Source: Deltaproteobacteria bacterium
GTDB taxonomy: Bacteria > Desulfobacterota > Dissulfuribacteria > Dissulfuribacterales > UBA5754
DNA: 34,561 nucleotides
Assembly: GCA_036574075.1 (NCBI GenBank)
Contig: JAINCN010000023.1
Location: forward strand, 1-34,561
Reading direction: 5' to 3'
The position numbers were made by a program, and so were the translations under genes. Shown in pieces: positions 388 through 16,602 of this stretch. Each line of letters starts with the position of its first letter. Within the stretch, counting starts at the first letter, position 1. Under the pieces are notes generated by a model, which saw only the letters and a list, made by a program, of their open reading frames with translations, did no database searches and was not told the origin of the DNA.

Positions 388-2889
388 TCAGGGACGTGTA
401 GTGCATGATTTGGGGTTATAGGTTGGCAACATGGCAAGTTTTTCTTTGTATGGCCTTGAAACTACAAGCCAATCGTATTTTTCCTTTGCAAGCTGGCTTG
501 CCAGCTTGGTCATCTGCTGTGTGTTATCAGAGCCAAGCTGCGATACAATCTTTTTAAGGATGGAGGCAAACTCATCCAGCTCAGCCTCATAAAGATGTAT
601 GCCATTTTTAAAAGCAAGTCCACGATTTCCGATCTTGGTAGTGAGGCAAACAAGTCCTGCAGCGGCATATTCCACAAGCTTTAAGTTGGTGCCTGAACCT
701 GAAACAACAGGATTTAATCCGATGTCTGAGGACCTTAGCACTATATTTTTTTCTTCATCATCAAGCCTGCCGAGAAACCACAGGTTTGAACCTGAGGGTG
801 CAGATTCAGCTTCGCAAACGCTTCCAAGTACCAGAAAAAGGATGTCAGGGCAGGCTTCAGAAAGAGAGCGAATAACAGGCAATGCCTCAATGTTGGGCTT
901 GTGAAGGCTTCCAATAAACAGGGCAACAGGCATATCTATGCCAAGACGGCGCTTAAGCGCTGCCTTTTCGTCAGATGAAAGCGGGGCAACACTGCTAAAA
1001 TCCACACCATTTGGGACAACAAGTATAACTTCTGGGCCTATGCCATAGAGCTTTACAAGGCGCATGGCATCTTGCTCTGAGCAGGCTATGATAAGTTGCG
1101 CCTCTTTGCAGGCACGCATCTCCACCTCAAAAACCTGTCTTAGATATGCACGGGCAGGTTCTGTATCCGGCAGCATTGCGGATTTGATGTCATATTCCAC
1201 ATTGTGCGCCTCGTACCATATAGGCCCACTCCAGCACCTTCTAACAGCATGAAACAGATATGGATGAGATAGTACCACTAAGCTGGCATGTCCAATGCGG
1301 GACGAGATGGCTTTTTCATAGGAGGAAAGGAGCTTAAAGCCCTCAATAGAGGCGATATCATCAGCAGATACACCAAGACAAGTAGATACTTCCACAGTAT
1401 GCCTATGGAAACGGGGGTTTCTTGGAACGATCAATTCTTCAAAATTAGGGGTGATAAAGGACTGAGAAGGAATGCCGGAGGTATTATGCGGGTCAAAACC
1501 TCCGATAGAAACAAGACTGATGTCTGCAATAGATGACAGCTCTTTGTAAATGTGAAATATGCGCTTTTGACCACCGCTTAGAGGCGGCTGAACCTGAAAG
1601 GTATTTACCACTACCACCTTAGGAATGAACACATTTGTTGCCACTTGGCTGCGTGAAGGCGACATAGAACTTGGGGCTAAAGCCTTGCGATTAGGGCCTT
1701 GAGGCTCAACCCCCTCAAGCAGGGCATCAACAGTATTCTGCCAGTTTATATGCCGGACAGACTCCTTTGCCCTTTTCCCCATTTCAATGGTTTTTTCTCT
1801 GTTTTCAATAAGCTCCTTCATGGCATCTGCGATTGAGCCTGGCCTTGGCTCAACACAAAGCCCTGTCTCATTGTGGGTCACCAACTCATTAACCCCGCCG
1901 GAGTCGAGGGTAGTTAGCACAGCCTTGCCTGAAAGCATTGCCTCAAGGGTAATCAACCCGTAATCTTCATCATACGGGACAAAAGGAACAAACAGGGCTG
2001 AAGAATAGGTCTCTACCAAAGAAGAATCATTAAGATAGCCCAAAAAATGTATCTGAGGGGTATCTGAAGCAAGTTTTTGAAGCGCCTCTTGTTGACCGCC
2101 TGTGCCAGCAATGTGAAATTCCACAGATGAACGCAGCCTTTGTGGCAACGATTTGAATGCCGTTATCAAAAGGTCAATGCGTTTAAGCCCCTCAAGCCTG
2201 CTAGCAGTAAATATATGACGATAATCACCTGTATGAAGACCACAAAGATCTGTAGGATGGTGTATGACCTTAATGACAATGGCAGACATGTCTGCATTTT
2301 TGGGAAAATATCCCTCTCTTAAAGCGACATTTCTGGAAATTGCACGCCAGTATCTGATCTGATCAGTAGTAAGGGCAGCACTATCAAGCCAATGAATAAT
2401 TGCCCTTGTCAAAGGTCCAGGAAATGCAAAGGTCAAGGGGTCTAATCTATCTTGAATATCTTTGAGCCTAAAGAGTTCTTGAAAGAATAAAGGCAACATG
2501 GCCCTGCTCGGTGTAGTCCTGAGCATATTGTCAAGTCTTTCAAGCTCTTTGTGATTAGGCGTAAAATCAACTGGCTGTCCTGTTTTGTGATACAGGTCAT
2601 AGACGCCGCGACACTTATGCTGCATGTAAACCATGTGATTTGGATGAGAAATAAGCCATGCGGGGTCTTTAGTTGTGATAACAAGGTCAAAATGATCAAG
2701 ATTTAACTGACTGAATCGATATGCTCCTTCTATTATCCCCCAAAAATGATTGCCGTTGCATGGGATTTTAATCAACTCTGCACTGTGGGGGGTAAGTTGA
2801 TTTATGGCGTTTAACAGGCCCCAAAAGAGTTTTTCAGCGCCACCGATAACAAAAGGTATGGGACTTGGCGTAACAATGGCAATGTTCAT
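388..2889 (-). CDS. Double-domain GT4 family glycosyltransferase
   Basis: This cytoplasmic enzyme of 833 aa probably adds two sugars to a surface glycan or glycoprotein. Two complete GT-B/GT4 units are visible. The first covers about residues 1-395, with an N-terminal GGAEKLFWGLL acceptor-domain motif and an EAMLSGKAVLTTLDSGG nucleotide-sugar motif. The second starts near residue 415, with SGGQKRIFHIY and, near the C-terminus, SGSGTNLKLVEYAAAGLVC. An ordinary GT4 has 350-420 aa, so this is a tandem fusion. The start codon overlaps the stop of the upstream methyltransferase by 4 bp (ATGA), so the two are translationally coupled. It is the last gene of the type I secretion cassette. Donor and acceptor sugars cannot be told from sequence. 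Confidence 0.85.
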   Translation of the reverse strand: MNIAIVTPSPIPFVIGGAEKLFWGLLNAINQLTPHSAELIKIPCNGNHFWGIIEGAYRFSQLNLDHFDLVITTKDPAWLISHPNHMVYMQHKCRGVYDLYHKTGQPVDFTPNHKELERLDNMLRTTPSRAMLPLFFQELFRLKDIQDRLDPLTFAFPGPLTRAIIHWLDSAALTTDQIRYWRAISRNVALREGYFPKNADMSAIVIKVIHHPTDLCGLHTGDYRHIFTASRLEGLKRIDLLITAFKSLPQRLRSSVEFHIAGTGGQQEALQKLASDTPQIHFLGYLNDSSLVETYSSALFVPFVPYDEDYGLITLEAMLSGKAVLTTLDSGGVNELVTHNETGLCVEPRPGSIADAMKELIENREKTIEMGKRAKESVRHINWQNTVDALLEGVEPQGPNRKALAPSSMSPSRSQVATNVFIPKVVVVNTFQVQPPLSGGQKRIFHIYKELSSIADISLVSIGGFDPHNTSGIPSQSFITPNFEELIVPRNPRFHRHTVEVSTCLGVSADDIASIEGFKLLSSYEKAISSRIGHASLVVLSHPYLFHAVRRCWSGPIWYEAHNVEYDIKSAMLPDTEPARAYLRQVFEVEMRACKEAQLIIACSEQDAMRLVKLYGIGPEVILVVPNGVDFSSVAPLSSDEKAALKRRLGIDMPVALFIGSLHKPNIEALPVIRSLSEACPDILFLVLGSVCEAESAPSGSNLWFLGRLDDEEKNIVLRSSDIGLNPVVSGSGTNLKLVEYAAAGLVCLTTKIGNRGLAFKNGIHLYEAELDEFASILKKIVSQLGSDNTQQMTKLASQLAKEKYDWLVVSRPYKEKLAMLPTYNPKSCTTRP

Positions 2890-4334
2890 AAAGATGGCTT
2901 TGTCCCTATCCAGACAAAGTCTCTTGAGACCTTGACATAATCCTCAAGTTTATCAAAACGATATAAATCCGCCTCTACAAGGCCATCTTGCTCTAAAAAG
3001 TAGGCCTTTGAAGGTCTAAAATCCCTTGCAGAGCCCAAAAACTGAAGTGTATCAGGAAAGACAGGACGTATGTGGTCAGGATCACGATAAAAATCACCTG
3101 AGCCAACGAGGATATTCCGAGGATTAGGGGTCTCAAAAATAGCTATGCCACCTGGGACAAGTACACGATATACCTCATCAAGCAGCAACAACTGAGAAGA
3201 AAAAGACAGATGCTCTATAAAATGAAAGGCCGTTACAACATGAAATGATGCCCCTTTTTGGACAGAAAGGAAATGAAATACATCATCAAAAACCACCTCA
3301 AACCCATATTCCATGGCCATAGCAGAAAGGTTAGGATTTTTATCCACACCAATGGCATCATAACCATGCCAACGAAGAAGCTCAAGCCACTCTCCTCTGC
3401 CACAGCCTAGATCAAGACATCTTGGTCTGGTTTCAGGCTTTGGCAGAAGTGGCAAATATCTCTTAAGTTTGTCCTCGATCTCTTCACGGCTTCCTCTAAA
3501 ACTGTCTTCAAAATCCACATACACAGAACTTAAAGAAGACAGTGATTCTTGCTGCACACTATAAGCATCGGCTTCATTTGATCTTAACGCCCGTAAAGCC
3601 TGGAGATTCAGCCTGCGGTCTAAATCTAAGGCGGTTCTGCGAATTCTTGCCACTTCGTCAGAAAGTGCTGATGCCTTTTGGAATGCAGCCTGCCTAAACT
3701 CATCTACACGTAAATGCAGATCCCGCTCAACTCTATCAGCGCGGCTTCCAACTGAATGCAATTCCTGCTCAAGTTTATCAGCGCGGCTTCCAACTGAACG
3801 CAATTCCTGCTCAAGTTTATCAGCGCGGCTTCCAACTGAACGCAATTCCTGCTCAAGTTTATCCAAAAAACCTTCGAGGATTTTTTTGTCTTTTTTTACT
3901 TGATAAAGCTCAAACTCAAGGGATTTCAGGTTTTTATATAGGCTAAGAGGGTTAAAAAAGCATTTGAGATAACGAAATAGCGGGCCAATTGCTGGAAGGT
4001 TTAAGACAAGACGGCTTATTCCAATTTCATCACTTTTAAAACCTGCCTTTCTTGCTTCTTTACTATATGCCAATCTGCAAAGAATGTCTTTTTTGTCAAG
4101 CCTTCCTTGGGCAAGGCAGGTACGATAGTATGACATGCCATATTCATCTGGGGTACGACTCAGTACATAACGATAAGCTGCATCTATAAATTCTTCTCCG
4201 TCAAGGCTGAGGATATCTGCAAGTGAGTCTGCATTTTTCTTGCTTTGGAGATAACCCATCTGCTTGGTCAACCTTTTGGTCTCTTGCTTTATGTTGCGTA
4301 AAAAAGCATCACGATCTACTTGCATTTTTTTCAT
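2886..4334 (-). CDS. SAM-dependent methyltransferase with N-terminal DUF4214 and coiled coil
   Basis: A 482-aa protein with three parts. Residues ~40-100 form a DUF4214-like domain (FIDAAYRYVLSRTPDEYGM). Residues ~145-225 form a coiled coil containing three 14-residue repeats (DKLEQELRSVGSRA). Residues ~275-480 form a class I methyltransferase, entered by DFEDSFRGSREEIEDKL and with the SAM-binding motif LDLGCGRGEW near residue 310 and FHFIEHL further on. Methyltransferases of this type cap or modify O-antigen chains in WbdD-like systems, where a coiled coil acts as a spacer or ruler; transfer of that role here is inference. It begins 5 bp after the protease gene and overlaps the glycosyltransferase by 4 bp. 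The same DUF4214 family occurs at the C-terminus of the protease. Confidence 0.8.
   Translation of the reverse strand: MKKMQVDRDAFLRNIKQETKRLTKQMGYLQSKKNADSLADILSLDGEEFIDAAYRYVLSRTPDEYGMSYYRTCLAQGRLDKKDILCRLAYSKEARKAGFKSDEIGISRLVLNLPAIGPLFRYLKCFFNPLSLYKNLKSLEFELYQVKKDKKILEGFLDKLEQELRSVGSRADKLEQELRSVGSRADKLEQELHSVGSRADRVERDLHLRVDEFRQAAFQKASALSDEVARIRRTALDLDRRLNLQALRALRSNEADAYSVQQESLSSLSSVYVDFEDSFRGSREEIEDKLKRYLPLLPKPETRPRCLDLGCGRGEWLELLRWHGYDAIGVDKNPNLSAMAMEYGFEVVFDDVFHFLSVQKGASFHVVTAFHFIEHLSFSSQLLLLDEVYRVLVPGGIAIFETPNPRNILVGSGDFYRDPDHIRPVFPDTLQFLGSARDFRPSKAYFLEQDGLVEADLYRFDKLEDYVKVSRDFVWIGTKPSL
3735..3860 (-). repeat. Three tandem 42-bp repeats inside the methyltransferase gene
   Basis: Three in-frame units of 42 bp start at 3735, 3777 and 3819 on the plus-strand numbering. 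Each encodes 14 residues, two coiled-coil heptads. The two higher-numbered units are nearly identical and the 3735 unit has a few changes. Because the unit is a multiple of seven residues, copy-number change would lengthen or shorten the coiled coil without breaking it. Confidence 0.9.
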
Positions 4335-4339
4335 TTAGT

Positions 4340-6424
4340 TCAGAATGCTTGGCAATAGCTATCTATACCTGCCTTTGCCTGTGCTACGGTGGTTGTGCTT
4401 GATGTTATGCCAGACAAAAAATATACACCTATCTGCTCAGAGTCATATGTACAACCAGCCCGTACCTTCTCTGTAAAATAGTTAGCTACTTCAAGTTTGT
4501 TATTTATAGTTATCAAGTCACTATTTTGAGCACCGTTTAGCACATCTAATGTGATAGTCTGCAATTTCATTAACCCGTTGTTTAGGTTATAAAGGTAGTA
4601 TTCCTTGCCACCTTCATCAGGGTTTCGGCTAAACATTTGTTGATAAATGGTGTCAATTAACTCGTCGTTAGTAAAACCGCCATATCTTTCTGTAAACTCA
4701 TTAGATGTGCCAAATGCCATGATAATTTGAGATAAATCGCCATTAGCATCAGCTAACCTGGCTGTCCAGTAATCCTGTCCATCAGGATCAGCAGGTCTGC
4801 CATAATAGGCAATATATATTTTTTGAACTTCATCAAGGTACTGGCTGTTTGATGTGCCAGACTGACTTACGCTAAGAGTCTTTCCTGCAATAGTGAGCGT
4901 ACCTGTACGGCTAATTGAACCGGTATTGGCTGCAACTGAATATTCAACTATCCCGTCTCCAGTGCCACTTGAACCAGAGGTGATGCTGAGCCAGCTGTTA
5001 TTGGAGGTAGCAGTCCATGTGCAGGTTGGAGATGAAGAAGACACTGAAACAGAGCCAAAGCCACCGGCAGCGGTAAAACTTTGACTTGTAGGATCTATGG
5101 AATATGTGCAGGTTGTGTCAGATGCAACCCTGTAGTTTGCAACAATCCTTCTTGTGTCATTAAAGGTCTTGGCATTATCCGCTCCGTTTGGGTCATTGGA
5201 ACTTACACCTGTTGGAAAACCGTTGTAACTCTTGGCGGGATTGGAATAGTAAAGTATCGTGTTTGCTTTTGTAAAACTGGTTTCATAAGCCATAATGGTT
5301 ACAAATTGATTGTCTATACCGTATCCACATGAATATGGATAGAAGCCTTGAGAACAACCTGTCCTTCTGTCATGATCGCCTCCAAGCAGATGCCCTATCT
5401 CATGTGCAAAGGAGGTGTCAGAACAATAATAATAACCTTCAGAGGCGCTTTTAAAGTCTGTAACGTTAAAGGCGTAATAGGGGTTGCAAAAACCTTCTTT
5501 TTTAAGTATCCAGCTAAGGCCACATGAGCCACCACCCTGATATACCCTGAAAAGTGCTACGATATCAGCCTTATACTGCTCTCTAAGACTACTTATGGTC
5601 TCAGGAGGTGCAGGTGGATTAAATGAACTACAACTTCCTGTTGTGCCAGTGATATAGTATAATACGTCATTTATTTTTGCACTTTCACTTGCTTGACTGT
5701 CTGTAAAGAGCGCACTATGTACCAATCTGAGCTGTGTGTTAATGCCGCTGTTGTTAAATGCCTCATTTGCAATGTCTATGGCATGTTGTATCTTAGATGC
5801 CAGTTGTGATGAGTATTTCGTGTAAAATTGCTGCGTATAGAGGACAAGAACATCAATATATTCGCCTGATTCAGTGGTGGTTGAATATGCCTGAGCAGCC
5901 TTGTATGGCAAATTTTCGTGTTCTATCATGGGGATCAGATAGTCATCTGGTGATGTCTTAATGTATGAACTATCCTCTTTTATTATGACATAATCAGCGC
6001 CATCTGGCTCAACTATGTAAGAGGCATTTTGAGTGACAATTTTACCATTCATAACGCCATCTACCACAGTCAGCACAACTGAGCTGAGTTCATCACCCTT
6101 AACCTTTCCAAACCATGTCCATGAGTTACGCGCCCTGTCAGTTACCCTCTTTTCAGCAATAATCATCTTTTGATCAGGCATAAGCAATGTGAACTCAGTA
6201 GAACTGATAGCACCAGGTCTTATGAGTTGGATATTGGCTGATACTCTAATACGATTAGCCCCACCTGAAGGCTCAGCACGTGATGACATGGCGCTTGGTT
6301 GCTGAATAATTTCAAAGAGATAGGGTGGCTCTAAATCGGAAAATGCAGACTCAGTAACAGTAAAAAGACACAACAGTGAAAAGAGAAGGACAACATACGT
6401 TTGGCGGAAAAGATTAAATTGCAT
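4340..6424 (-). CDS. Secreted reprolysin-like zinc metalloprotease with BACON and DUF4214 domains
   Basis: This 694-aa exported protease has a Sec-type signal peptide (hydrophobic VVLLFSLLCLFTV at residues 11-23), then a prodomain-like region. The catalytic domain has HEIGHLLGGDHD at residues 341-352, giving zinc ligands H341, H345 and H351 and the catalytic E342, with a Met-turn IMAY at 377-380. A BACON-like beta domain spans ~435-522 and DUF4214 ~525-620, with a tail to 694. I chose ATG 6424 over GTG 6433 because GGCGG lies 8 nt upstream of it. It follows the TolC gene by 22 bp, so it is the likely client of, or at least co-expressed with, the type I exporter, although a Sec signal is present. 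It carries five N-X-S/T sequons. Confidence 0.8.
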   Translation of the reverse strand: MQFNLFRQTYVVLLFSLLCLFTVTESAFSDLEPPYLFEIIQQPSAMSSRAEPSGGANRIRVSANIQLIRPGAISSTEFTLLMPDQKMIIAEKRVTDRARNSWTWFGKVKGDELSSVVLTVVDGVMNGKIVTQNASYIVEPDGADYVIIKEDSSYIKTSPDDYLIPMIEHENLPYKAAQAYSTTTESGEYIDVLVLYTQQFYTKYSSQLASKIQHAIDIANEAFNNSGINTQLRLVHSALFTDSQASESAKINDVLYYITGTTGSCSSFNPPAPPETISSLREQYKADIVALFRVYQGGGSCGLSWILKKEGFCNPYYAFNVTDFKSASEGYYYCSDTSFAHEIGHLLGGDHDRRTGCSQGFYPYSCGYGIDNQFVTIMAYETSFTKANTILYYSNPAKSYNGFPTGVSSNDPNGADNAKTFNDTRRIVANYRVASDTTCTYSIDPTSQSFTAAGGFGSVSVSSSSPTCTWTATSNNSWLSITSGSSGTGDGIVEYSVAANTGSISRTGTLTIAGKTLSVSQSGTSNSQYLDEVQKIYIAYYGRPADPDGQDYWTARLADANGDLSQIIMAFGTSNEFTERYGGFTNDELIDTIYQQMFSRNPDEGGKEYYLYNLNNGLMKLQTITLDVLNGAQNSDLITINNKLEVANYFTEKVRAGCTYDSEQIGVYFLSGITSSTTTVAQAKAGIDSYCQAF

Positions 6425-6446
6425 AGGTAGCACCGCCCAATGTTAT

Positions 6447-7889
6447 TTAATAAATTACCTTATCATTTAGCAATTTGTCAAGTTTTTTTATCTCATCAAC
6501 ACTTAAGCAACCGCTTGCAGCCTTAAGCCTGATTGATAGAATAAGGTCATTACATAAGGCATTTTTTAGCTCCACCTCTGCATTAAAATATGCTTGCTCA
6601 GCGTTTATAAGATCGGTTTGTGTGCGGGTTCCGATTGCACGCCCCTTTCTTACGCCTTTCAGTTGCACACATGCAGACTCCAACTGTTTTTTTAGGGCGG
6701 CATAAAGACGTTGGTTGGCTTTTACATTAGAGAAAGCAATCTCAGTCTTCTTAGAAAGATCATCTTCATAGGCCTTAAGTTTCTCGCTTGCCTCTTTTCT
6801 CATGGCAGCATAGGCAGATACTGTAGATTTAGTACGAAATCCTTCAAAGACAGGCATCTTAAGGGTTACGCCGTAAGCAAAATCTTCAGTCTTAAGCTCA
6901 GACAAAAAGGCATCACCTTTTCTTACTGAATAGCTACTATATAGTTGAGCCGTTGGAAGATATCCAGCATAAGCACGTTTGACCTCATTTTCAGCGACGG
7001 CAAGCTCGTTTCTTGCCTTTATGAGGACAGGATGGTTTTTAAGAGTATATGTTATCCATGCCGAAACATCTGAAGGTTCAGGGGAAGCAGGCTCAAAATT
7101 AGAAATTGCCTTAATCTGACGGGCTGAAATACGAATGCCTGCGATCCTACTAAGCTCGCTTTCAAAATTTTCCCTCTCTCCTATTGCCTTTTCAAGCTTT
7201 GCCTCTTGCGCATCAAGGGCAGCCTTTGCTTCATAAACAGATACTATATCTGTAGTTCTTTCGCGGAACTTTGTCTCTGCCTCCCTTAACACCTCAATGA
7301 GCCTATCTCGTTCCTTCCTCGTAAGATCTTCAGTATTGTACGCAATTATTACATTGAAAAAAGCCTCTGCAAGACGTTGAATGAGATTTTGTTCAGCATA
7401 TAGCACATCTGCCTCTGCAGACTGGATGCGCAAGTCAGCTGACTTAAAACCATACCAACTTTCTACATCAAAAAGTGGTTGGGTAAGCGTTACTGAATAA
7501 TTATAGGCTGAGTACAAGCCTTGCATTTTGGGCGTTGTTCCATAATTTAATAGTGTATGGTCAATTTTGCTTAAGCTTGCGCCTGTATCTATGTGAGGCA
7601 ATAGATTTGATCTTGCTATACCTTTCTCAGCATATTTTCCCTCTAGTTGTGCCTTAGCTGCTAGCAAAGTGCCGTCTCTTTCCTTTGCTAAGTTATAAAG
7701 CTCTAATAAACCATATTTATGCGTTAGTTGATCTGCTTTTTTGAGGTCTTCTAAGCAAGAAGGTTCTTTAGGAAAGGATTGATTAAATGGCAATTTAAAG
7801 TAATCAAAATCAGGGTCTTCAACCTCGTGTGCATGTGCAAGAGGTAATGTAAAAGCACAATAAAGCAAATAAAGAATAAAATAAAGCAA
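6447..7889 (-). CDS. TolC-family outer-membrane channel of the type I secretion system
   Basis: This 480-aa protein would form the outer-membrane and periplasmic tunnel of the tripartite exporter. It begins with a signal peptide ending LPLAHA and continues with the two helical repeats usual for the family, including TQPLFDVESWYGFKSADLRI and the C-terminal equivalent MPVFEGFRTKSTV. Length is normal for the family. The start appears to be TTG at 7889: no ATG occurs in the first 120 residues, and GGGAG lies 8 nt upstream, inside the end of the adaptor gene, whose stop is only 2 bp away. The weak start codon may set the ratio of channel to adaptor. Its partners are the two upstream genes. Confidence 0.85.
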   Translation of the reverse strand: MLYFILYLLYCAFTLPLAHAHEVEDPDFDYFKLPFNQSFPKEPSCLEDLKKADQLTHKYGLLELYNLAKERDGTLLAAKAQLEGKYAEKGIARSNLLPHIDTGASLSKIDHTLLNYGTTPKMQGLYSAYNYSVTLTQPLFDVESWYGFKSADLRIQSAEADVLYAEQNLIQRLAEAFFNVIIAYNTEDLTRKERDRLIEVLREAETKFRERTTDIVSVYEAKAALDAQEAKLEKAIGERENFESELSRIAGIRISARQIKAISNFEPASPEPSDVSAWITYTLKNHPVLIKARNELAVAENEVKRAYAGYLPTAQLYSSYSVRKGDAFLSELKTEDFAYGVTLKMPVFEGFRTKSTVSAYAAMRKEASEKLKAYEDDLSKKTEIAFSNVKANQRLYAALKKQLESACVQLKGVRKGRAIGTRTQTDLINAEQAYFNAEVELKNALCNDLILSIRLKAASGCLSVDEIKKLDKLLNDKVIY

Positions 7890-7891
7890 AA

Positions 7892-9289
7892 TTAGGACTC
7901 CCTGAAGGTATTTCTGAGCCTATCTCTAAGGGGTGAAAGTAAATAGTCAATTACCCTGCGCTCACGGGTTGCAATAGCCACCTGTGCATTCATCCCTGGC
8001 ATTAGTTTTATGTCCTTGACCTTTGAAAGGGTTTCTGAGTTTACCTCTATATATACCTTGTAATAAGGCATTTCTCCGTAGGCTGTTTTTTCTGTCAGCC
8101 TATCTGCTGAAACATATGAAACCGCACCATCAATTGGTGGATGAGTGCTTGGCTTAAAAGCGCTGAAAGTTATTTCTGCTTTTTGCCCTGGAGACACCTC
8201 ATTTATGCTATCTACACTTACTTTTGCCTCAATAATCAAACGATCCTCCAGTGGCACTATGTCCATTAAGGGCTCTTTGCCTGCAATAACTCCACCAATT
8301 GTAGCCACTTTAAGATCAACAACCTTGCCATCAATTGGCGCTCTGATAATGAGTCTTGAGAGGGCATCTTTAGGGGCTCTTATGCGTTCAGTCAGCTCAA
8401 GGAGATGGCTTTCTGATTCTCGTAGTTTAGCAGTGCACTCCTCAATGCGTTGGTCACGCAGAGCATTTAACCTAGTTTTATATTCAACTGCGCGTTCCTC
8501 ATTTGTTGTAATTTGAGAAAGAATGGCCATTTTATTCCTAAGTTTTTCTGCTAAAAGCCTTTCAAGATCAAGCACAACTGTCCTTGTTACATAACCCTCA
8601 TCAAGCAGAGCACGATGGCTCTTTAACTGTTCATTGACAGCGGCTATCTCGTTGTCTGCAGCGGCAAGCTGTTCCTTAAGCCCTGCCACCTCCTTTTCTA
8701 TCTGGCGAATCTGGGACAGTAACATCTCACGCTGCGAATTATAAGAGTCAAGCCGAGCATTAAAAAGCCTCTGCTCTGAGGTTATAAACTCTCTTAGTGC
8801 TTGCTCTTTTTCTGATCTCTCAAGCAAATCTTTTGGAAATGTGATGTGTTGGGCATCATTTTTCTCGGCAGTAAGCCTTGCTATACGTGCGTTTTCCTCA
8901 TCAATCTGTTTAGTTAAAAGCTCAACAGTTGCGCTAAGCATCTCATCGTCAAGGGCTATAAGTGGTGTATCTGTCTTTACTATATCCCCTTCTTTGACAA
9001 ATATTTTCTTTACGATGCCGCCTTCCAGGTGCTGAATGGTCTTTCTCTTGCTCTCCACAATCACGACACCATGTGCCATGACCGCGCCTTGAATATGAGC
9101 CAAAAAGGCCCATAATACGAAACCGCCAAAACATACAGCTAAAATTAGCAGCCCGATGCGTGAGATTTTGGAAGGTTCTGGAGCTGTAAGCCTTTTATCT
9201 TCCTTTTGAGGTAGGATTGTAATGATGTCAGCAACATTATCGGATCGTTTTTTATTGAATGATTGGACTTCCACCTGCTCCTCCAGCAT
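7892..9289 (-). CDS. HlyD-family periplasmic adaptor of type I secretion (PrtE/AprE type)
   Basis: This 465-aa membrane-fusion protein links the inner-membrane ABC transporter to TolC. After a ~45-residue cytoplasmic part comes one membrane segment (LLILAVCFGGFVLWAFLAHI). Next are a lipoyl half (QHLEGGIVKKIFVKEGD), a long helical hairpin of about 200 residues, the second lipoyl half (IRAPIDGKVVDLKVATIGGV) and a C-terminal beta domain ending near TRERRVIDYLLSPLRDRLRNTF. I chose the ATG at 9289, with AAGG a few bases upstream; the longer frame to 9349 would overlap the ABC gene by 98 bp, against 38 bp here. GTG 9274, preceded by GGAGGA, is also possible. TolC follows 2 bp downstream. Confidence 0.87.
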   Translation of the reverse strand: MLEEQVEVQSFNKKRSDNVADIITILPQKEDKRLTAPEPSKISRIGLLILAVCFGGFVLWAFLAHIQGAVMAHGVVIVESKRKTIQHLEGGIVKKIFVKEGDIVKTDTPLIALDDEMLSATVELLTKQIDEENARIARLTAEKNDAQHITFPKDLLERSEKEQALREFITSEQRLFNARLDSYNSQREMLLSQIRQIEKEVAGLKEQLAAADNEIAAVNEQLKSHRALLDEGYVTRTVVLDLERLLAEKLRNKMAILSQITTNEERAVEYKTRLNALRDQRIEECTAKLRESESHLLELTERIRAPKDALSRLIIRAPIDGKVVDLKVATIGGVIAGKEPLMDIVPLEDRLIIEAKVSVDSINEVSPGQKAEITFSAFKPSTHPPIDGAVSYVSADRLTEKTAYGEMPYYKVYIEVNSETLSKVKDIKLMPGMNAQVAIATRERRVIDYLLSPLRDRLRNTFRES

Positions 9290-10955
9290 GTATCCTTGAC
9301 TGGGACTGTTGAGGTACAAGCTGCTTGAAAACTTCATTCCTTGGCCCATAAAGTTTCACAGCACCATCTGTAACAAGCAGTATCTTGTCAACAATGGACA
9401 GAATGTTCAGCTTATGGCTTATGACAACTGTTGTTAGTTTTGCCTTTTTAGCAATCAAGATAGCATTTAAAAGTGCCTGCTCTCCCTCGGTATCTAAATT
9501 TGAATTAGGCTCATCCATGACTATGAGCTTTGGAAGCCCATAAAATGCCCGCGCTATGCCAATGCGTTGCCTTTGACCACCTGACAGGATCGTGCCTGTC
9601 TCGCCAATATCTGTATCATAACCATTTGGCAGCCTCAGAATCATCTCATGACAGCCTGCGATCATGGCTGCCTGAATGACCTTTTGAGAGTCAACCTCTT
9701 GAAGCCTTGCTATATTTTCTGCTACAGTGCCGGGAAAAAGCTCTATATCCTGAGGTAAGTAGCCGATATATTGCCCTATCTTGTCTTTCTGCCACTGACT
9801 AATGTCAGCCCCATCCAGTCTGACAGCGCCCACAGTTGGCTTGTAAACGCCCACCATCAAGCGCGCAACAGTGGACTTTCCTGCAGCTGAAGGACCTATG
9901 ATGCCCAAAGTCTCACCCGGCTGCAGGGCAAAGGACATCGCCTTGATAACAGAACGCTGCCCAATATTAAAATATACATTCTCAAACACAACATGGCCTT
10001 TGGGGGCAAGAAGATCCATCTGCTCAGCCTTTGTTGTATTGATGGTATCCATAAACTCTGATAGTCTTCGGTAAGCTTGACGAGCCTCGACAAAGTTTTT
10101 CCATCCAGATATAGCTAGGTCAATTGGACTAAGGGCCTTGCCAGCAATGATAGAGCCAGCAATCATGATACCACCTGTCGCCTCATTTTTAAGCACAAGA
10201 TAAGCGCCTACTCCAAGCATAGAGGACTGAAGAAACTGTCTTGCAAACTTGGACATATTAGTAAGAAGCCCTGCCTTTTTACTTGCAAGGGTCTGATAGC
10301 CAATACTCAGACTGTTATATTTTCCCCAATGTTTAAGTACACCCTTAAACATGCCCATCGCATTGATTGCTTCTCTATTTCTAAGGGAAATATCTACATA
10401 TCGTGAGGCGTCCCTGCCATATTTATTTGCATCTTTAAGTGGCTCGCGCGAGATTTTTTCATTGAGAATTGCTAAAGTAATCATAACAATAGCACCAAAA
10501 AAGGCAACGCTAAATAAAACTGGATGCATGTAATAGAGAATAAGCATGTAGATAGGAAACCAAGGGGCATCAAAGATAGCAAATATGCCTGTTCCTGTCA
10601 AAAAGGTCCGAATGATACCCATGTCTTTAAGACCATATGGATAGGTTTTGCCTATCTGAGCGCCATCAAGCCCTATCATACCCCTCAGAATATCTTCAGA
10701 AATCATGTCGTCAAGCTTGGCATTGATGCCAACAAGTAGACGAGAACGAACAACATCCAATCCAAGGGCTGTAAGCAAAAGAGCAGCCAGCAGGATTGTA
10801 AGCATAACTAAGGTCTCTACACTGCGGCTGTTTATCACGCGGTCATAGACCTGAAGCATATAAAGTGATGGCGCTAATTGCAGTAGATTACTTACAAGAC
10901 TGAAGAGACCAACGTATAAAAAATAATTAGAAAATTTTAAAAGAAATTTTTTCAT
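9252..10955 (-). CDS. Type I secretion ABC permease/ATPase (PrtD-like)
   Basis: This 567-aa inner-membrane half-transporter powers one-step export through HlyD and TolC. The membrane domain (about residues 1-310) opens with SLVSNLLQLAPSLYMLQVYDRV, typical of the PrtD/AprD group, and there is no N-terminal C39 peptidase or C39-like domain. The nucleotide-binding domain has Walker A GPSAAGKST (~355), signature LSGGQRQRIGIARA, Walker B LIVMDEP and an H-loop histidine in VVISHKL. It is the first gene of the cassette and overlaps the adaptor gene by 38 bp. There is no clear Shine-Dalgarno before the ATG. Group members export proteases and lipases with uncleaved C-terminal signals. Confidence 0.9.
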   Translation of the reverse strand: MKKFLLKFSNYFLYVGLFSLVSNLLQLAPSLYMLQVYDRVINSRSVETLVMLTILLAALLLTALGLDVVRSRLLVGINAKLDDMISEDILRGMIGLDGAQIGKTYPYGLKDMGIIRTFLTGTGIFAIFDAPWFPIYMLILYYMHPVLFSVAFFGAIVMITLAILNEKISREPLKDANKYGRDASRYVDISLRNREAINAMGMFKGVLKHWGKYNSLSIGYQTLASKKAGLLTNMSKFARQFLQSSMLGVGAYLVLKNEATGGIMIAGSIIAGKALSPIDLAISGWKNFVEARQAYRRLSEFMDTINTTKAEQMDLLAPKGHVVFENVYFNIGQRSVIKAMSFALQPGETLGIIGPSAAGKSTVARLMVGVYKPTVGAVRLDGADISQWQKDKIGQYIGYLPQDIELFPGTVAENIARLQEVDSQKVIQAAMIAGCHEMILRLPNGYDTDIGETGTILSGGQRQRIGIARAFYGLPKLIVMDEPNSNLDTEGEQALLNAILIAKKAKLTTVVISHKLNILSIVDKILLVTDGAVKLYGPRNEVFKQLVPQQSQSRIHAGGAGGSPIIQ

Positions 10956-11067: not shown

Positions 11068-11166
11068 CTACTTAAAAAACAGGTTAACCTTCAACCGCTC
11101 CCGAAACAATTCACGGCTGCCACGATGCTTTGTCTCAAAAGCATAATAAAATTTCTTCTCATTCAT
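11068..11166 (-). pseudogene. Truncated O-antigen-type methyltransferase gene (N-terminal 32 codons)
   Basis: An ATG overlaps the wzt stop region and opens a frame reading MNEKKFYYAFETKHRGSREL and onward to a stop after 32 codons. The part AFETKHRGSRELFRERL aligns with DFEDSFRGSREEIEDKL in the methyltransferase encoded at 2886-4334, exactly the segment that precedes the SAM-binding motif there. The frame stops before any SAM motif, so it is not functional. Position directly after wzt is where WbdD-like chain-terminating methyltransferases are often encoded. The alignment is by eye. Confidence 0.6.
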
Positions 11167-12403
11167 CGTAGAGTTTACCGGATTTATTCCGTGTCATCTG
11201 AATTCTCACAGGTAGGTTGCAGACACCTGTAAAAAGAGGTGCACTGTCCGGAATACACTGAAACACCAGTGCTCTATCCCACCAATCATAGTTATTGACT
11301 ACATGTACATCTTTGGTGTGGAGCGCTGCTGTCACGCTGTAACTTCCATACCCCAAAAAAAGCCCGGGAAAACAAAAATCCACATAAAATGATTCTGCTG
11401 CAGACATGCCTTTAAGAGTCAAGCCGTGATGAAAGGTATTGGTGCCGAAGACGTCGTTTCCCAACCGATCACGAATAAGAATACCTACTGTTAGTTCCTC
11501 AAGACTGTCATTTGTTTGGACATGAACACGAAACGTTGCACTTTCACCGGTTTGAATGGCCCTTACCGGCTTGCCATCGGACAACAGTTCAACAGCTGTG
11601 ATGGAGGCGCGGCCGTTTCCAGAACGGGTTTTTTTTCTGCCAGATGTCGTTTCTTCCTGCAGTATCTTTTGATTTTCCTGCTGTCTGGCGATCATGGCAT
11701 TGTAATAGTCCAAAGTGTTATCTGGCATATCATCTTTGACGAGTAGACCACCATCCAGAAGGATTGCCCTTTTACAGAGAGTCTTTATAGCACCAGGACT
11801 GTGCGAGACAAATAGCAGCGTGGTGCCTGCATCCCGAAACCGGCGTATGCGATCAAAACTCTTATGCTGAAAGTAGGTATCACCCACCGACAGCGCCTCA
11901 TCCACAATCAGGATGTCCGGCCTTACGCAGGTAGCCACGCTGAAGGCAAGTCTCATCTGCATGCCGCTGGAATAGACCCTTATAGGCTGATCTATATATT
12001 CCCCTATCTCGGCGAAGGCCTCGATCTCTGGCATCAGGCGCGCGATTTCCTCGGCGCTGCAGCCAAGCAGTTGCCCAGCCATGAACACATTCTGCCTTCC
12101 TGTGAAGTCGGGATGAAAGCCCATACCCAGTTCCAGCAGGGCGGCGACGCGGCCGGTGATCTGGACGCTTCCGGTGGTGGGCTGGGTGGTACCAGTGATT
12201 ATCTTGAGAAGGGTGCTCTTTCCTGCGCCGTTGACCCCGATGATGCCGACTGCCTCACCGGGCTGGACGGTGAAATTGATGTCCCTGAGCACCCAGTGGA
12301 GCTGATGGCGGGGTTTTCCGCGTGGGTCCATCCATTCCGCCAGCCGGGCCCATTGGCTGGGGTATCGTTTGTAGGCCTTTCCTAGCTTGGAGACTATGAT
12401 CAT
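11159..12403 (-). CDS. wzt: Polysaccharide ABC exporter ATPase with C-terminal carbohydrate-binding domain
   Basis: This 414-aa cytoplasmic ATPase drives export of a lipid-linked polysaccharide with the Wzm permease. Walker A is GVNGAGKST at residues 56-64, followed by an A-L-L-E-L-G-M-G-F-H-P segment, the signature YSSGMQMRLAFS and Walker B ILIVDEALS, all typical of the Wzt/TagH group. About residues 265-410 form an extra beta domain (ITAVELLSDG ... FGTNTFHHG ... YGSYSVTAALH), as in O9a/O8-type Wzt proteins that recognise the modified end of the glycan. The partner permease gene is upstream, separated by 218 bp of repeats. No Shine-Dalgarno precedes the ATG: heptamer repeat begins 7 bp before it. 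Confidence 0.9.
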   Translation of the reverse strand: MIIVSKLGKAYKRYPSQWARLAEWMDPRGKPRHQLHWVLRDINFTVQPGEAVGIIGVNGAGKSTLLKIITGTTQPTTGSVQITGRVAALLELGMGFHPDFTGRQNVFMAGQLLGCSAEEIARLMPEIEAFAEIGEYIDQPIRVYSSGMQMRLAFSVATCVRPDILIVDEALSVGDTYFQHKSFDRIRRFRDAGTTLLFVSHSPGAIKTLCKRAILLDGGLLVKDDMPDNTLDYYNAMIARQQENQKILQEETTSGRKKTRSGNGRASITAVELLSDGKPVRAIQTGESATFRVHVQTNDSLEELTVGILIRDRLGNDVFGTNTFHHGLTLKGMSAAESFYVDFCFPGLFLGYGSYSVTAALHTKDVHVVNNYDWWDRALVFQCIPDSAPLFTGVCNLPVRIQMTRNKSGKLYDE

Positions 12404-12409
12404 AAATAA

Positions 12410-12444: not shown

Positions 12445-12492
12445 ATTTGTCATGTTTGGGGAGAGGGGTTGTTTTTGGCGATGAGGTCTTGA

Positions 12493-12621: not shown

Positions 12622-13440
12622 TCATAATTCGTCTACCATTTCGCCTGCGTGTTTACGGAATAGCCAGATGCCCAGTGCGCACAGTAGCACGGACAGCATG
12701 GTTACGAGCCACAGGCTACGCCAATGCGGCCATTGGCCTTTGACAAGTATGGTCTGATATCCTTCCATGAGGTTGGCCAAAGGGTTCAGGCCTATGATCG
12801 GCCTGGCCCATTCGGGGAGGACCGAGGCTGGGTAAACGATTGGGGTCAGCCAGAACCAGAACTGCAGGAGCACGCCGAACAACTGGCCGACGTCACGAAA
12901 GAAGACATTGAGTATGCCCAGGGTGATGCCAAGGCCGATGGAGAAGGCGACCAGGATGGCCAACAGGGGGATGAGTGCGAGAAAGGCCAGGCCGGGAAAA
13001 TTGCCGGAGATCAGCAGAAAGACAGTAAAGAGGCCAAAGATGATTGCAAAATTTAGACCGGCGTTGAGCACGACCACAGTAGGCAGGCACAGGCGCGGGA
13101 AGCTGATCTTCTTGAGCAGGTTTGCGTGTTCGATAAAGACGTTGAGTGAACGGCCTGTTATCTCTGCAAACAGGCCCCAGGTCAGGACGCCTGCGCAGAG
13201 ATAGATGCTGTAGGAATAGACATTTTCTGCCCCTGGAAGACGAGCTCGCATGACCTGCGAGAAGACGACCGTGTAGATCAGGATCATGGCAAGGGGATTG
13301 AGGACCGTCCAGGCGGCTCCCAGGAGTGAGTTCTGGTATCTGGATTGAAATTCGCGCTTTACGCTGCCAAGGATGAAGCCGCGATAGGCCCAGACCGCAT
13401 GCAGATGAGAAGGGGAGATCCCGAAAGGCAGTTGCGTCAT
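12622..13440 (-). CDS. wzm: Polysaccharide ABC exporter permease (ABC-2 family)
   Basis: This 272-aa inner-membrane protein carries the lipid-linked glycan across the membrane with Wzt. It shows about six hydrophobic segments (for example MILIYTVVFSQVM, IYLCAGVLTWGLFAEI and LQFWFWLTPIVYPASVLP). Motifs VKREFQSRYQNSLLGAAWTV and NVFFRDVGQ are typical of Wzm/TagG permeases, and the length is usual. It overlaps the upstream glycosyltransferase by 4 bp (ATGA). Its ATPase is the next gene downstream, but repeats now separate the two by 218 bp, which may reduce co-expression. Confidence 0.9.
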   Translation of the reverse strand: MTQLPFGISPSHLHAVWAYRGFILGSVKREFQSRYQNSLLGAAWTVLNPLAMILIYTVVFSQVMRARLPGAENVYSYSIYLCAGVLTWGLFAEITGRSLNVFIEHANLLKKISFPRLCLPTVVVLNAGLNFAIIFGLFTVFLLISGNFPGLAFLALIPLLAILVAFSIGLGITLGILNVFFRDVGQLFGVLLQFWFWLTPIVYPASVLPEWARPIIGLNPLANLMEGYQTILVKGQWPHWRSLWLVTMLSVLLCALGIWLFRKHAGEMVDEL

Positions 13441-14471
13441 ACCTCAGCCAGTACCTCTTCGTAGATCCTTGCGTATCCCTTCACCATATCTTCCACCTTG
13501 AATCTTTGGCGTACCCACGAGGCAGCCGCTGCTCTCATGTCCAGCCAGAGGTTCCTGTCTGATGCCAGGAGGCGCACTGCCTCTGCAAAGGCCCGAACGT
13601 CATCCATGGGGCAGAGGATACAAGTTGCCCCGTCGATGACAACCTCTGGAACGGATGAAGAGCGGGTGGCGATCACAGGGGTTCCACAGGCCTGGGCCTC
13701 GCAGGGTGCAAGGCCAAAACCTTCGAGGCGCGATGGAAGAAGCAGTGCGTCGGCCTCCTGATAATAACGCACCAGATCTGCCTGATCCTTCAGGCGTCCT
13801 ATCTGGAAGATACTTCCGCAACGGCCTTTTTTAAAGATGTTCCTGTGGTCGCCGACACAGAAAAGTTCATACCCCTTTCCCAATCGTTCCATGATGGGGA
13901 GCAGGAGATCCGCACCCTTTCGGCGTGTAAGGCCCCCCACATATAGGAGGCGAAAAGGGCTGTTGAATCCTTGCCGCGACACGGGTCTGAAACGTTCGGT
14001 ATCCACGCCGGGATGGATGACCTCTACATCCTTTCGTCCAAAGATCCTCATTGCCATGTGCGCGGTATGGTGGCTGACAGCAACGACCCTTGAGGCAGAC
14101 CCTATGATTTCCCGCTCCATGGGTGTGATCCAGAACCTGTGATAGACGGCCTGCAGAAGATTCCTGTAAGGAGAAAATGCCGGGTCCTGAACGCAATGAT
14201 GGAGCGTTGCAACGATCGGCACGCCCTTGGGAAGGAGACTGGCCGGAAGCCAGGTGTTCACATGGACGATGTCGGCCCTGAAAGGGCAGGCCAGGGATGA
14301 AAAGCAGGGGAGATATTCCGTCCGATGAGGGAGCCAGTCTACATGAACCCGATAACCTGTCTGTTCCAGCCCTGCGGCCAGGGTGCGGGTAAAGGTCTCA
14401 GCGCCGGTTTTTGTCCTTATGGCCGGAAACCAGATCGAAGGCCTCCGGCCAAGGGGTGGGGTGCGGCTCAC
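13437..14471 (-). CDS. GT4 family glycosyltransferase
   Basis: This 344-aa GT-B enzyme probably adds a hexose or deoxyhexose to the exported polysaccharide. The N-terminal domain shows RTKTGAETFTRTLAAGL and the C-terminal domain LLYVGGLTRRKGADLLLP, LLLPSRLEGFGLAPCEAQAC and GTPVIATRSSSVPEV, the glutamate-rich donor site of GT4. I chose GTG at 14471, which overlaps the previous gene's stop as GTGA, rather than 14534, which would add an implausible 21-residue leader and overlap by 67 bp. It overlaps wzm by 4 bp. Sugar specificity is not readable. Confidence 0.85.
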   Translation of the reverse strand: MSRTPPLGRRPSIWFPAIRTKTGAETFTRTLAAGLEQTGYRVHVDWLPHRTEYLPCFSSLACPFRADIVHVNTWLPASLLPKGVPIVATLHHCVQDPAFSPYRNLLQAVYHRFWITPMEREIIGSASRVVAVSHHTAHMAMRIFGRKDVEVIHPGVDTERFRPVSRQGFNSPFRLLYVGGLTRRKGADLLLPIMERLGKGYELFCVGDHRNIFKKGRCGSIFQIGRLKDQADLVRYYQEADALLLPSRLEGFGLAPCEAQACGTPVIATRSSSVPEVVIDGATCILCPMDDVRAFAEAVRLLASDRNLWLDMRAAAASWVRQRFKVEDMVKGYARIYEEVLAEV

Positions 14472-15625
14472 GGCGTTTCCATCCCGGCTGTGTTGTGTAC
14501 CAGCTCTCTCAGGCGCCTGCCGAAAAGCGACCACTCGAAATCTTGAGCGAATTGTCTGCAGGCGGTCCGGACGGCCATGTCTTGTCGATTCAGCAGAAAG
14601 TGGACGACCGCTTTTTCAAACTCCAGAAAATTTCCAGCAGGAATGAGGGAGCCGGAGATCCCGTCCATTACGGCGTCTGATACGCCTCCCGCATCAAAGG
14701 CAACTGTGGGAAGTCCATGCGCTGCGGCCTCCAGCGCAACCATCCCGAAGCCCTCGTTGTCGTAAGGTGTCGCCTGAACGGGAAAGACATGGACGTCAGA
14801 GGCAAAATACGCAGCAGTGAGCTGTGGGTTATCCAGTTTGCCGAGAAAGAGGACCCGGTCCTCCAGACCCAGCCTGCGAACGATACCTAAGGCGCGGGCC
14901 TTTTCATCTACCTGTTTTTTTACGGCCTCAGAAGCGTTGTCACCGATTACGAGCAGCCGGGCCTCTGGGACGATGTTCAGGACATGAGGGAGGATGCGCT
15001 CGATAAAGGTCGTCAGGCCCTTGCGCGGGGTGATCCGTCCCACAAAGAGCATGATGGGTGTCTGACCAAGGCCGTATCTATCCCGAAAGGTTTGGGCGAT
15101 TCGCTTTTTATCCGAGATGTCTGGGAGGCTCACTCCTGGCGGGAGGATAGAAAGCTTTGCATCCATGACGCCTTCGCGCAGCGCAAGGGCCTTCGTAAAC
15201 CGACTGTTTACGATCACCTGATCAGCCCTTCTTATAAAGGGTTTCCAGAAGAGATTGTACACTGGATGTCGATTTTCTATGTCCAGACCGTGCAGGTATG
15301 CACAGGTTCGGGCGTGACTGATCCGTGCAGAAAGATGCGCCATAGGGGCCGTCAACCCGCTCCCGGCAAGGACGACATGGGGCCTGTGCCGAAGCGCCTC
15401 AGCCAGCGAGTAAAAAAAGGCCCAGGCGATAAAGCAGGAGAGCGGACGGGCAGGGATTTCCCTGCCGCATATCCCCCTGGGGAGCAGCCCCAGGCATCCT
15501 TTCGGACCCACAACATGGACATGAAAGTCCATGGATAGCGCCGTTATCATGTTCCAGACCAGGCGCTCCATGCCACCCACAAGGGGAGGAAGATTTCTTG
15601 TGACAACAAGTATCCTGAGAGGCAT
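14468..15625 (-). CDS. GT4 family glycosyltransferase (PimB-like)
   Basis: This 385-aa cytoplasmic GT-B enzyme has the N-terminal acceptor motif NLPPLVGGMERLVWNM. In its C-terminal half it has LFVGRITPRKGLTTFIE, VFPVQATPYDNEGFGMVALEAAAHGLPTV-type donor-site residues and FDAGGVSDAV. The pattern matches PimB/mannosyl- or rhamnosyltransferase-like GT4 proteins. It is first in the string GT4-GT4-wzm-wzt and overlaps the next gene by 4 bp. An array of AGCTATC heptamers starts 6 bp before its ATG, so its original upstream region and ribosome-binding site appear to have been replaced. Confidence 0.85.
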   Translation of the reverse strand: MPLRILVVTRNLPPLVGGMERLVWNMITALSMDFHVHVVGPKGCLGLLPRGICGREIPARPLSCFIAWAFFYSLAEALRHRPHVVLAGSGLTAPMAHLSARISHARTCAYLHGLDIENRHPVYNLFWKPFIRRADQVIVNSRFTKALALREGVMDAKLSILPPGVSLPDISDKKRIAQTFRDRYGLGQTPIMLFVGRITPRKGLTTFIERILPHVLNIVPEARLLVIGDNASEAVKKQVDEKARALGIVRRLGLEDRVLFLGKLDNPQLTAAYFASDVHVFPVQATPYDNEGFGMVALEAAAHGLPTVAFDAGGVSDAVMDGISGSLIPAGNFLEFEKAVVHFLLNRQDMAVRTACRQFAQDFEWSLFGRRLRELVHNTAGMETP

Positions 15626-15631
15626 TTTATA

Positions 15632-15680
15632 AGCTATCAGCCAACAGCTATCAGCTATCAGTTATCAGCTTTCAGCTATC
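15632..15680 (+). repeat. Heptamer array AGCTATC, forward arm (7 units)
   Basis: Seven consecutive units of the AGCTATC family (four exact; AGCCAAC, AGTTATC and AGCTTTC variants) fill the gap between two glycosyltransferase genes. The stop codon of the GT2 gene lies in the last unit. The reverse arm is at 15705-15739, 24 bp away, giving an imperfect hairpin. Confidence 0.8.
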
Positions 15681-16602
15681 TGTTGTTATTTTGGGGTTGG
15701 GTTTGCTGACAGTTGCTAGCTGATAACTGACAGCTTTCTTTAGAACTTTTTTCATATCTTATCTGGCATATCTGTTCTGAGATCAACCCGAGAGAAAAAA
15801 TAATGGTCGAATTGATAAAAAGCAGGGCGCTCATGTTGGTAAAGCGTCCTTGTGTCATGTATGTGTAAAGATAATAAGCTAATCCTAAGAGAAAAAATAA
15901 AATACTTAATGGAAAAAAAATGCGCATGGGTGAATAGATGGTGCAAATGCGAACAATAATATAAAAAAAACGCGCTCCATCCTTAAAAAGACTTATTTTG
16001 CTTTTTCCTTTCTGGCGTTTATGGCTTGAAATTGGGATAAATTTGATTGTTCTACCACTCCTTAAAAACCCAAGGGTCAAGGTTGTAGGATACGAAAAGG
16101 TATTGGGTAAAAGATCAATGAACTCAAGGGCGATTTCCCTCTTCACCGCCCTGAAACCTGACGTCAGATCTTTTATGGGGAAATTTGAAACATATGATCC
16201 CAAAACATTGAAAACAGAGTTGGCTAATGATCGAAATAACGTAGCTTGATCCTTCAACGAGCGTGATCCTATAACCATGTCATAATCAGGGATATATTCA
16301 AGAAGTTTTTTTATATCATTTGGATCATGTTGACCATCGCCGTCTAAAAAAACAACAATTTCTCCGCTGGAAAACCTTAATCCGTTTTTTATTGCCGCTC
16401 CGTTGCCGATATTGTACGGATGCCTGTAAACCTTAACATTGCAAGAATCGGCAACTTTTGCCGTGTCATCTGTTGATCCATCATCTATGACTATTATTTC
16501 GCATGACGGATATTGTGTTTTTATAGTATTAATTAATTTAGGTAAATTATCTGCCTCATTATATGCTGGGATAACAATGGAAATATTTTGATTATCTGTC
16601 AT
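15676..16602 (-). CDS. GT2 polyprenyl-phosphate sugar synthase-like glycosyltransferase
   Basis: This 308-aa enzyme probably transfers a hexose from a nucleotide sugar to a polyprenyl-phosphate carrier on the cytoplasmic side. The GT2 fold shows IVIPAYNEADNLP, VIDDGSTDDTA, the metal-binding LDGDGQHDP (D87, D89) and SGFRAVKRE. Two membrane segments follow at about 228-250 and 258-277. This matches DPM1/GtrB-like synthases. The next gene upstream encodes an STT3 oligosaccharyltransferase, so the product may feed protein glycosylation. The last ~20 residues (from KESCQLSASN) are encoded by heptamer repeat, so the native C-terminus was lost. The gene is AT-rich, unlike the GC-rich genes on both sides of the block. 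Confidence 0.82.
   Translation of the reverse strand: MTDNQNISIVIPAYNEADNLPKLINTIKTQYPSCEIIVIDDGSTDDTAKVADSCNVKVYRHPYNIGNGAAIKNGLRFSSGEIVVFLDGDGQHDPNDIKKLLEYIPDYDMVIGSRSLKDQATLFRSLANSVFNVLGSYVSNFPIKDLTSGFRAVKREIALEFIDLLPNTFSYPTTLTLGFLRSGRTIKFIPISSHKRQKGKSKISLFKDGARFFYIIVRICTIYSPMRIFFPLSILFFLLGLAYYLYTYMTQGRFTNMSALLFINSTIIFSLGLISEQICQIRYEKSSKESCQLSASNCQQTQPQNNNR
15705..15739 (-). repeat. Heptamer array, reverse arm (5 units)
   Basis: Units GCTGACA, GTTGCTA, GCTGATA, ACTGACA and GCTTTCT are degenerate reverse complements of AGCTATC. They lie inside the 3' end of the GT2 frame and pair with 15632-15680. Confidence 0.65.

Follow-up and report, generated by a model that had tools for sequence, protein, structure and literature searches.

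The window, which is the whole stretch of 34,561 nucleotides analysed here, carries six open reading frames on the minus strand between positions 388 and 10955. Their presence, order and domains, as described in an earlier sequence-only reading, are borne out by the ORF calls and by Pfam and NCBIfam searches, and neighbouring frames are spaced by 13 bp or less or overlap. Three of them encode a type I secretion system (T1SS), namely a PrtD-type permease/ATPase (9252..10955; TIGR01842, 683 bits, cut-off 510), which is the only match above this cut-off in the genome, a HlyD-type adaptor (7892..9349; TIGR01843, 374 bits, cut-off 209), and a TolC-type outer membrane channel (6447..7889; OEP, 169 bits) that remains under the TIGR01844 cut-off (196 vs 225). 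The HlyD and PrtD frames overlap by 98 bp, a size set by the choice of start codon. These are joined by an exported metzincin protease (4340..6433), a DUF4214-bearing methyltransferase (2886..4334), and a double GT4 glycosyltransferase (388..2889), the last two overlapping by 4 bp. The same-strand run extends upstream to position 18801 and includes a Wzt ATPase with a C-terminal carbohydrate-binding domain (Wzt_C; 11159..12403; PF14524, E 2.5e-35), a Wzm permease (12622..13440; PF01061), two GT4 glycosyltransferases (13437..14534 and 14468..15625), an AglJ-like GT2 (15676..16602), and an STT3/PglB-type oligosaccharyltransferase with a WWDLG motif (16672..18801), which is a candidate member of the system only. 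The best NCBIfam matches of Wzm are the galactan-export Wzm and KpsM models, both below cut-off. The six genes are part of a larger, recurring surface-polysaccharide locus that adjoins a protein secretion system. A dispersed repeat is found at each end of the island.

The two modules of the double GT4 are confirmed by Pfam and NCBIfam, and the enzyme is proposed as a chain polymerase, WbdA-like in build. Its full-length relatives (36-55% identity) adjoin wzm-wzt-methyltransferase genes and/or T1SS genes. The methyltransferase carries DUF4214 at residues 44-95 (4050..4205), followed by tandem 14-residue repeats, KLEQELRSVGSRAD, encoded by 42-nt repeats (residues 159-214; 3693..3863), and by a SAM methyltransferase domain (PF13489, residues 284-406) at one end of the predicted coiled coil. 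The coiled coil is suggested by the 14-residue repeats and a weak SMC match, and the length of the linker differs among relatives. The best PDB match of the methyltransferase is 3dli, an uncharacterised methyltransferase (E 2.5e-72), and no WbdD is found among the best 60 of its 71 PDB matches that would point to homology beyond the generic methyltransferase fold. Wzm or Wzt is encoded in 53 of 67 long methyltransferase loci, and wzm, wzt with a carbohydrate-binding tail, and a dual-glycosyltransferase polymerase occur together beside the methyltransferase in the window and in L049, L060, L069, L125, L131, and L136. The sequence-only reading had the methyltransferase and the glycosyltransferase modify the protease. 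They probably do not, since their relatives lie directly 3' of wzm-wzt and the Wzt and Wzm genes of the window stand just upstream (11159-13440).

The linkage of T1SS genes to the DUF4214 methyltransferase and the double GT4, likewise claimed from this one stretch, recurs in other genomes. For example, the order TolC-PrtD-HlyD-methyltransferase-double GT4 is found in L059 and L142, and PrtD-HlyD-methyltransferase-double GT4 in L063; together with L139 these are the other Desulfobacterota with T1SS genes directly upstream of the methyltransferase or the double GT4, an arrangement seen in 5/8 genomes of the phylum with a near-full-length double GT4. The wider set with T1SS, methyltransferase, and double GT4 comprises L060, L069, L107, L109, L125, L129, L131, and L136, and the loci span Desulfobacterota, Gammaproteobacteria, and Alphaproteobacteria. 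The adjacency thus recurs, but the exact six-gene order including the protease is seen in the window only and in none of the other loci compared. A general separation of these enzymes from T1SS genes, as expected of a chance linkage, holds for the methyltransferase loci overall (T1SS nearby in 12/67) but not for those of the double-GT4 type (11/19, against 1/48 loci without a double GT4). A T1SS or another DUF4214 ORF is present in 15/19 double-GT4 loci and in 7/48 others, while 2/19 double-GT4 loci have a methyltransferase without DUF4214 and neither a T1SS nor an exported DUF4214 protein. DUF4214 on the methyltransferase, taken alone, was a weaker predictor of the T1SS than the double GT4 (3/14 vs 4/34 with double-GT4 loci set aside). 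The linkage to double-GT4 loci does not look like chance, but P values overstate it, as only about four independent lineages on the methyltransferase tree support the association, a number that does not allow a phylogenetic test.

The protease is Mep72/reprolysin-like, with Reprolysin_5 (75 bits), two DUF4214 matches, and BACON above cut-off, and it has the motif HEIGHLLGGDH at residue 344. Its C-terminus is a tandem DUF4214 module (4343..4849) supported by an alignment and modelled by AlphaFold with a pLDDT of 96.2, and its N-terminus is a Sec signal peptide recognised by eye, VLPMQFNLFRQTYVVLLFSLLCLFTVTESAFS (6338..6433); the relatives of the protease likewise have hydrophobic N-termini. The claim that the T1SS exports this protein does not hold up. 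It is probably not T1SS cargo, given its Sec signal peptide, the type II secretion system (T2SS) that the genome encodes, and the lack of any match to RTX repeats (PF00353) in the genome. The T1SS has no recognised cargo here, the protease being the sole exported DUF4214 protein in the window, and the other T1SS-bearing loci showed no protease.

DUF4214 is a frequent domain of predicted surface proteins. As a family (PF13946) it is suspected to be a surface anchor of such proteins (PMC12780176, PMC11970703). Its joint presence in exported proteins and in the methyltransferase, noticed in the sequence-only reading, is confirmed in the loci compared, and 1 to 33 matches per genome are found in 18 genomes with such loci. 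Signal-less exported DUF4214 proteins, some with RTX, are encoded beside the loci of L060, L107, L125, L131, and L136, and L152 encodes signal-less and Sec-signal DUF4214 proteins side by side. Signal-less proteins have the domain at the N-terminus, Sec-type ones at the C-terminus or internally, a difference in position that rules it out as a T1SS signal. Being present on both Sec-type and T1SS-type exported proteins as well as on the proposed terminator, DUF4214 is independent of the export route and is not a secretion signal. Homology to the N-terminal domain of RsaA (RsaA_NTD, PF19198), a separate Pfam family, finds no support: the RsaA probe, identical letter for letter to PDB entry 6t72, scored against both DUF4214 HMMs inside the range of its own shuffles; hhalign gave a probability of 1.3%; and RsaA_NTD was absent among the Foldseek matches listed for DUF4214. 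Among 289 genomes from the class to which L129 belongs, none gave an RsaA_NTD match. A single DUF4214 domain queried against the PDB returned only chance matches to antibodies.

The locus type shares features with several known systems. In E. coli O8/O9a, capped chains are selected by the C-terminal domain of Wzt, and the coiled-coil methyltransferase WbdD recruits the dual glycosyltransferase WbdA (PMC3482155, PMC11231755). The likeness to O8/O9a (K. pneumoniae O5/O3) lies in the ABC exporter, in a Wzt with a C-terminal carbohydrate-binding domain, and in a coiled-coil methyltransferase beside a dual-GT4-type enzyme. However, the putative terminator of the window has the reverse order, with DUF4214 and a hydrophobic stretch first and the methyltransferase last; it lacks a kinase, its sequence is not that of WbdD, and this locus type adds T1SS genes and exported DUF4214 proteins. 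In Caulobacter, the S-layer protein RsaA leaves the cell through a T1SS, and its N-terminal domain binds the O-antigen (PMC8828063, PMC6978808). As with RsaA/RsaDEF, T1SS and polysaccharide genes stand together, and relatives of the locus encode exported proteins that lack a signal peptide and carry a helical module at the N-terminus, some of them also bearing RTX repeats. The anchor module here would be DUF4214 rather than RsaA_NTD, and the window has no signal-less substrate, its DUF4214 protein being Sec-type with a C-terminal module. The PrtD, HlyD, and TolC genes also adjoin a secreted metalloprotease as in PrtDEF operons, but here the enzyme, a Mep72/reprolysin-like metzincin, has a Sec signal peptide and lacks RTX. 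What sets this case apart from other DUF4214 surface proteins is that a cytoplasmic polysaccharide enzyme encoded beside an exporter has the domain as well, which suggests a ligand.

The explanation we favour, at even odds (about 0.5), is that the segment belongs to an ABC-transporter-dependent, O-antigen-type surface polysaccharide locus whose glycan is read by DUF4214 to anchor exported proteins. The T1SS and protease genes would then sit within a wzm-wzt-methyltransferase-double-GT4 core. The double GT4 would polymerise the chain, and the coiled-coil methyltransferase may cap its non-reducing end at a set length, a step needed for export by analogy with WbdD; the capped chain would be picked by the carbohydrate-binding domain of Wzt and exported with Wzm. 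Our best guess for DUF4214, again by analogy, is a glycan-recognising, RsaA-like anchor, with which exported proteins may be held on the polysaccharide coat of the cell as the N-terminal domain of RsaA is in Caulobacter. They would be delivered by the T1SS in many relatives and by Sec, probably followed by the T2SS, in the case of the window protease. Hence, the anchoring of a surface protein survives from the sequence-only reading, but through a shared glycan and not through DUF4214-DUF4214 contact. We propose a functional reason for the linkage of the two gene sets, the sugar genes making the anchor and the T1SS delivering the proteins that it holds. DUF4214 on the terminator may help to engage the same chain. 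A two-sided role, with the domain recognising the O-polysaccharide both in the cell, within a mirror-image WbdD-type terminator, and on its outside, as the anchor of T1SS- or Sec-exported proteins, one locus thus supplying anchor and key, is a tentative extension and rather doubtful. Its presence on a proposed capping enzyme, beside a polysaccharide exporter and a secretion system, gives DUF4214 a specific ligand candidate. If correct, many Proteobacteria and Desulfobacterota would display enzymes and S-layer-like proteins by a route similar to S-layer anchoring in Caulobacter, and the O-antigen chain terminator would have a new topology.

The polysaccharide locus may also be correctly recognised while DUF4214 serves in protein docking, recruiting the double GT4 to the methyltransferase and forming oligomers or lattices on exported proteins. 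A double GT4 accompanies 17/31 methyltransferases with DUF4214 against 2/36 without, and the domain occupies the end opposite the catalytic end, which is where WbdD binds its polymerase (PMC11231755). The nearest fold, though a weak resemblance (TM 0.40, E 0.37), is that of the phycobilisome linkers, which are protein-binding. Yet 14/31 of the DUF4214-bearing methyltransferases have no double GT4, and docking leaves unexplained why exported DUF4214 proteins gather at these loci whichever of the two routes they take; we consider it unlikely, at perhaps one chance in four. Anchoring to a shared glycan is also to be weighed against the dedicated system of the sequence-only reading, where the protease leaves through the T1SS and is modified by the methyltransferase and glycosyltransferase. 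The tight gene order in the window, the protein-glycosylating STT3 in the same run, and five N-x-S/T sequons in the protease agree with such a system, but none of these sequons is of the bacterial D/E-x-N-x-S/T type, the export evidence (Sec signal peptides on the protease and its relatives, a T2SS, no RTX) points elsewhere, and the methyltransferase and double GT4 occur without such a protease everywhere else examined, which makes it highly improbable. Less far-fetched, although still improbable, is a chance assembly, a variable surface-structure island having brought the T1SS, protease, and polysaccharide genes together with no functional link. The restriction of the protease-containing order to the window, the few independent lineages, and the repeat at both island ends would fit this, whereas T1SS genes directly upstream of the methyltransferase or double GT4 in L059, L063, L139, and L142, and T1SS genes present in the same loci in Gamma- and Alphaproteobacteria, argue against it.

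The six ORFs at 388-10955 on the minus strand, which encode a PrtD-type ATPase, HlyD, TolC, a protease, a methyltransferase (MT; DUF4214, coiled coil and SAM methyltransferase, 2886-4334) and a double GT4, are present as first described, according to ORF reading and Pfam/NCBIfam profile scans. The minus-strand run extends beyond PrtD to 18801 and includes Wzt (with Wzt_C), Wzm, two GT4, an AglJ-like GT2 and an oligosaccharyltransferase, with Wzt ending about 200 bp from PrtD on its upstream side. The gene order is Wzm-Wzt-[PrtD-HlyD-TolC-protease]-MT-double GT4; since Wzm-Wzt lie on one side and MT-double GT4 on the other, the type I secretion (T1SS)/protease block is embedded in a polysaccharide core. 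The locus is best interpreted as a WbdD/WbdA-like polysaccharide system in which the terminator has a mirror-image layout, and which is coupled to the secretion of surface proteins that bear the terminator's own domain, DUF4214. The observation made in the sequence-only reading and its sense of a meaningful neighbourhood were borne out. Its mechanism, in which a dedicated T1SS secretes the protease and the MT and glycosyltransferase glycosylate or anchor it, is mostly not supported, as the protease is Sec-type and relatives of the MT and double GT4 follow wzm-wzt.

In related genomes, these relatives lie directly 3' of wzm-wzt. For example, one locus (L049) has the order Wzm-Wzt-MT(DUF4214)-GT4-double GT4, and Wzm-Wzt-MT is seen in two others (L050 and L052). 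In a scan that took a single genome for each species, 80 MT loci were found, and among the 67 of at least 12 kb with an assignable MT ORF, Wzm or Wzt was nearby in 53. In the window MT, a coiled coil made of 14-residue tandem repeats separates the catalytic domain at one end from DUF4214 and a hydrophobic stretch at the other; this layout is conserved in 19 relatives, with a variable linker length. The locus is modelled on the O8/O9a systems, in which a coiled-coil terminator recruits a dual-GT polymerase and caps the chain, and capped chains are chosen for export by the C-terminal domain of Wzt (PMC3482155, PMC11231755).

T1SS genes were nearby in 11/19 loci with a full double GT4 vs 1/48 without, and T1SS or another DUF4214 ORF in 15/19 vs 7/48. 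Likewise, T1SS was near 12 of the 31 MTs with DUF4214 and none of the 36 without. These counts were compared by Fisher tests on loci related by descent, and as the double-GT4 state changed only about four times on the MT tree, leaving too few independent pairs for testing, P values such as 6e-7 overstate the association. When 395 genomes of the phylum were searched separately with the double GT4, eight near-full-length matches were obtained, the window among them; this sample overlaps that of the MT scan, as G171 and L059 are one contig and G116 and L063 another. T1SS genes are immediately upstream of the MT or double GT4 in five of the eight (the window, G171/L059, G116/L063, L139/G369 and L142/G270), and in the window the protease is placed between the T1SS genes and the MT. 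Among the other T1SS-bearing loci of the MT scan, none showed a metzincin catalytic domain, and matches to the window protease span its DUF4214 end only. Hence, of the proposed six-gene linkage, T1SS-MT-double GT4 recurs in other genomes, whereas the full order with the protease is so far specific to the window genome.

The protease is a Mep72/reprolysin-like metzincin (HEIGHLLGGDH) with BACON and a C-terminal tandem DUF4214. On inspection it begins, like relatives elsewhere, with an apparently clear Sec signal peptide. As GspD scored above cut-off on contig C11 of the same genome with T2SS-like neighbours, and a profile search of that genome found no RTX protein, the simpler reading is that the protease is exported through Sec, probably followed by T2SS.

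DUF4214 occurs in the window genome in the protease, the MT and contigs C5 and C47. Near double-GT4 loci, the exported proteins with DUF4214 are either Sec-type or signal-less, the latter beginning with DUF4214, some with RTX (L060, L107, L125, L131, L136). Both kinds are adjacent on L152, a stretch from the genome of L063, where the C-terminal module of the Sec-type protein (1284 aa) shares 58% identity with that of the window. The domain is therefore independent of the export route, which is best explained by an extracellular ligand common to these proteins; the obvious candidate would be the polysaccharide made by the adjoining genes. RsaA of Caulobacter is a precedent for a polysaccharide-anchored exported protein (PMC8828063, PMC6978808), and kinship between DUF4214 and the RsaA anchor domain could not be shown with HMMs, hhalign, Pfam or Foldseek. 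A serious rival is that DUF4214 may be a protein-docking module, as the tandem module, confidently modelled by AlphaFold (pLDDT 96), weakly resembles phycobilisome linkers.

Other DUF4214 ORFs were also seen. On C5 (L047, 8138-10182), a Sec-type DUF4214 protein near the contig end has its reading frame broken between 8506 and 8632. C5 and C47 (L043/L147) have a common coding stretch, PNQITNVTYDDVVREVQQNIADPGD, which adjoins DUF4214 at the contig ends or close to them; the assembly may therefore have been interrupted by DUF4214 modules present in several copies. In a Smithella genome, an ORF with C-terminal DUF4214 (L150, 3804-4502) appears to resemble another SAM methyltransferase at its start; the DUF4214-methyltransferase fusion may thus have arisen more than once.

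The oligosaccharyltransferase (16672-18801, minus strand) is of STT3/PglB type with a WWDLG motif, and together with the AglJ-like GT2 of the same run could possibly represent protein N-glycosylation machinery adjoining an O-antigen exporter. Nucleotide-sugar genes at 19133-26584, assigned by sequence likeness, comprise a GDP-mannose dehydratase (Pfam), a second SDR and genes resembling rmlA/C/D/B (judged from translations); they suggest that the building blocks are rhamnose or related deoxysugars. At 22320-23141 there is another Wzm-like ABC-2 permease (PF01061), beside which no Wzt gene was recognised. A 200 bp direct repeat (34068-34518; 97% identity, spacing 251 bp) is inside or beside a metallo-beta-lactamase-fold ORF (33231-34484). 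A dispersed repeat of about 175 bp is found at 177-351, inverted at 18904-19037 and partially at 27524-27620. The window genome (about 2.0 Mb in 66 contigs, the window being 1-34561 of C23) carries some 40 copies or more that are 80-89% identical (of 249 first-look candidates, 40 were scored), and copies flank the polysaccharide/T1SS island on both sides.
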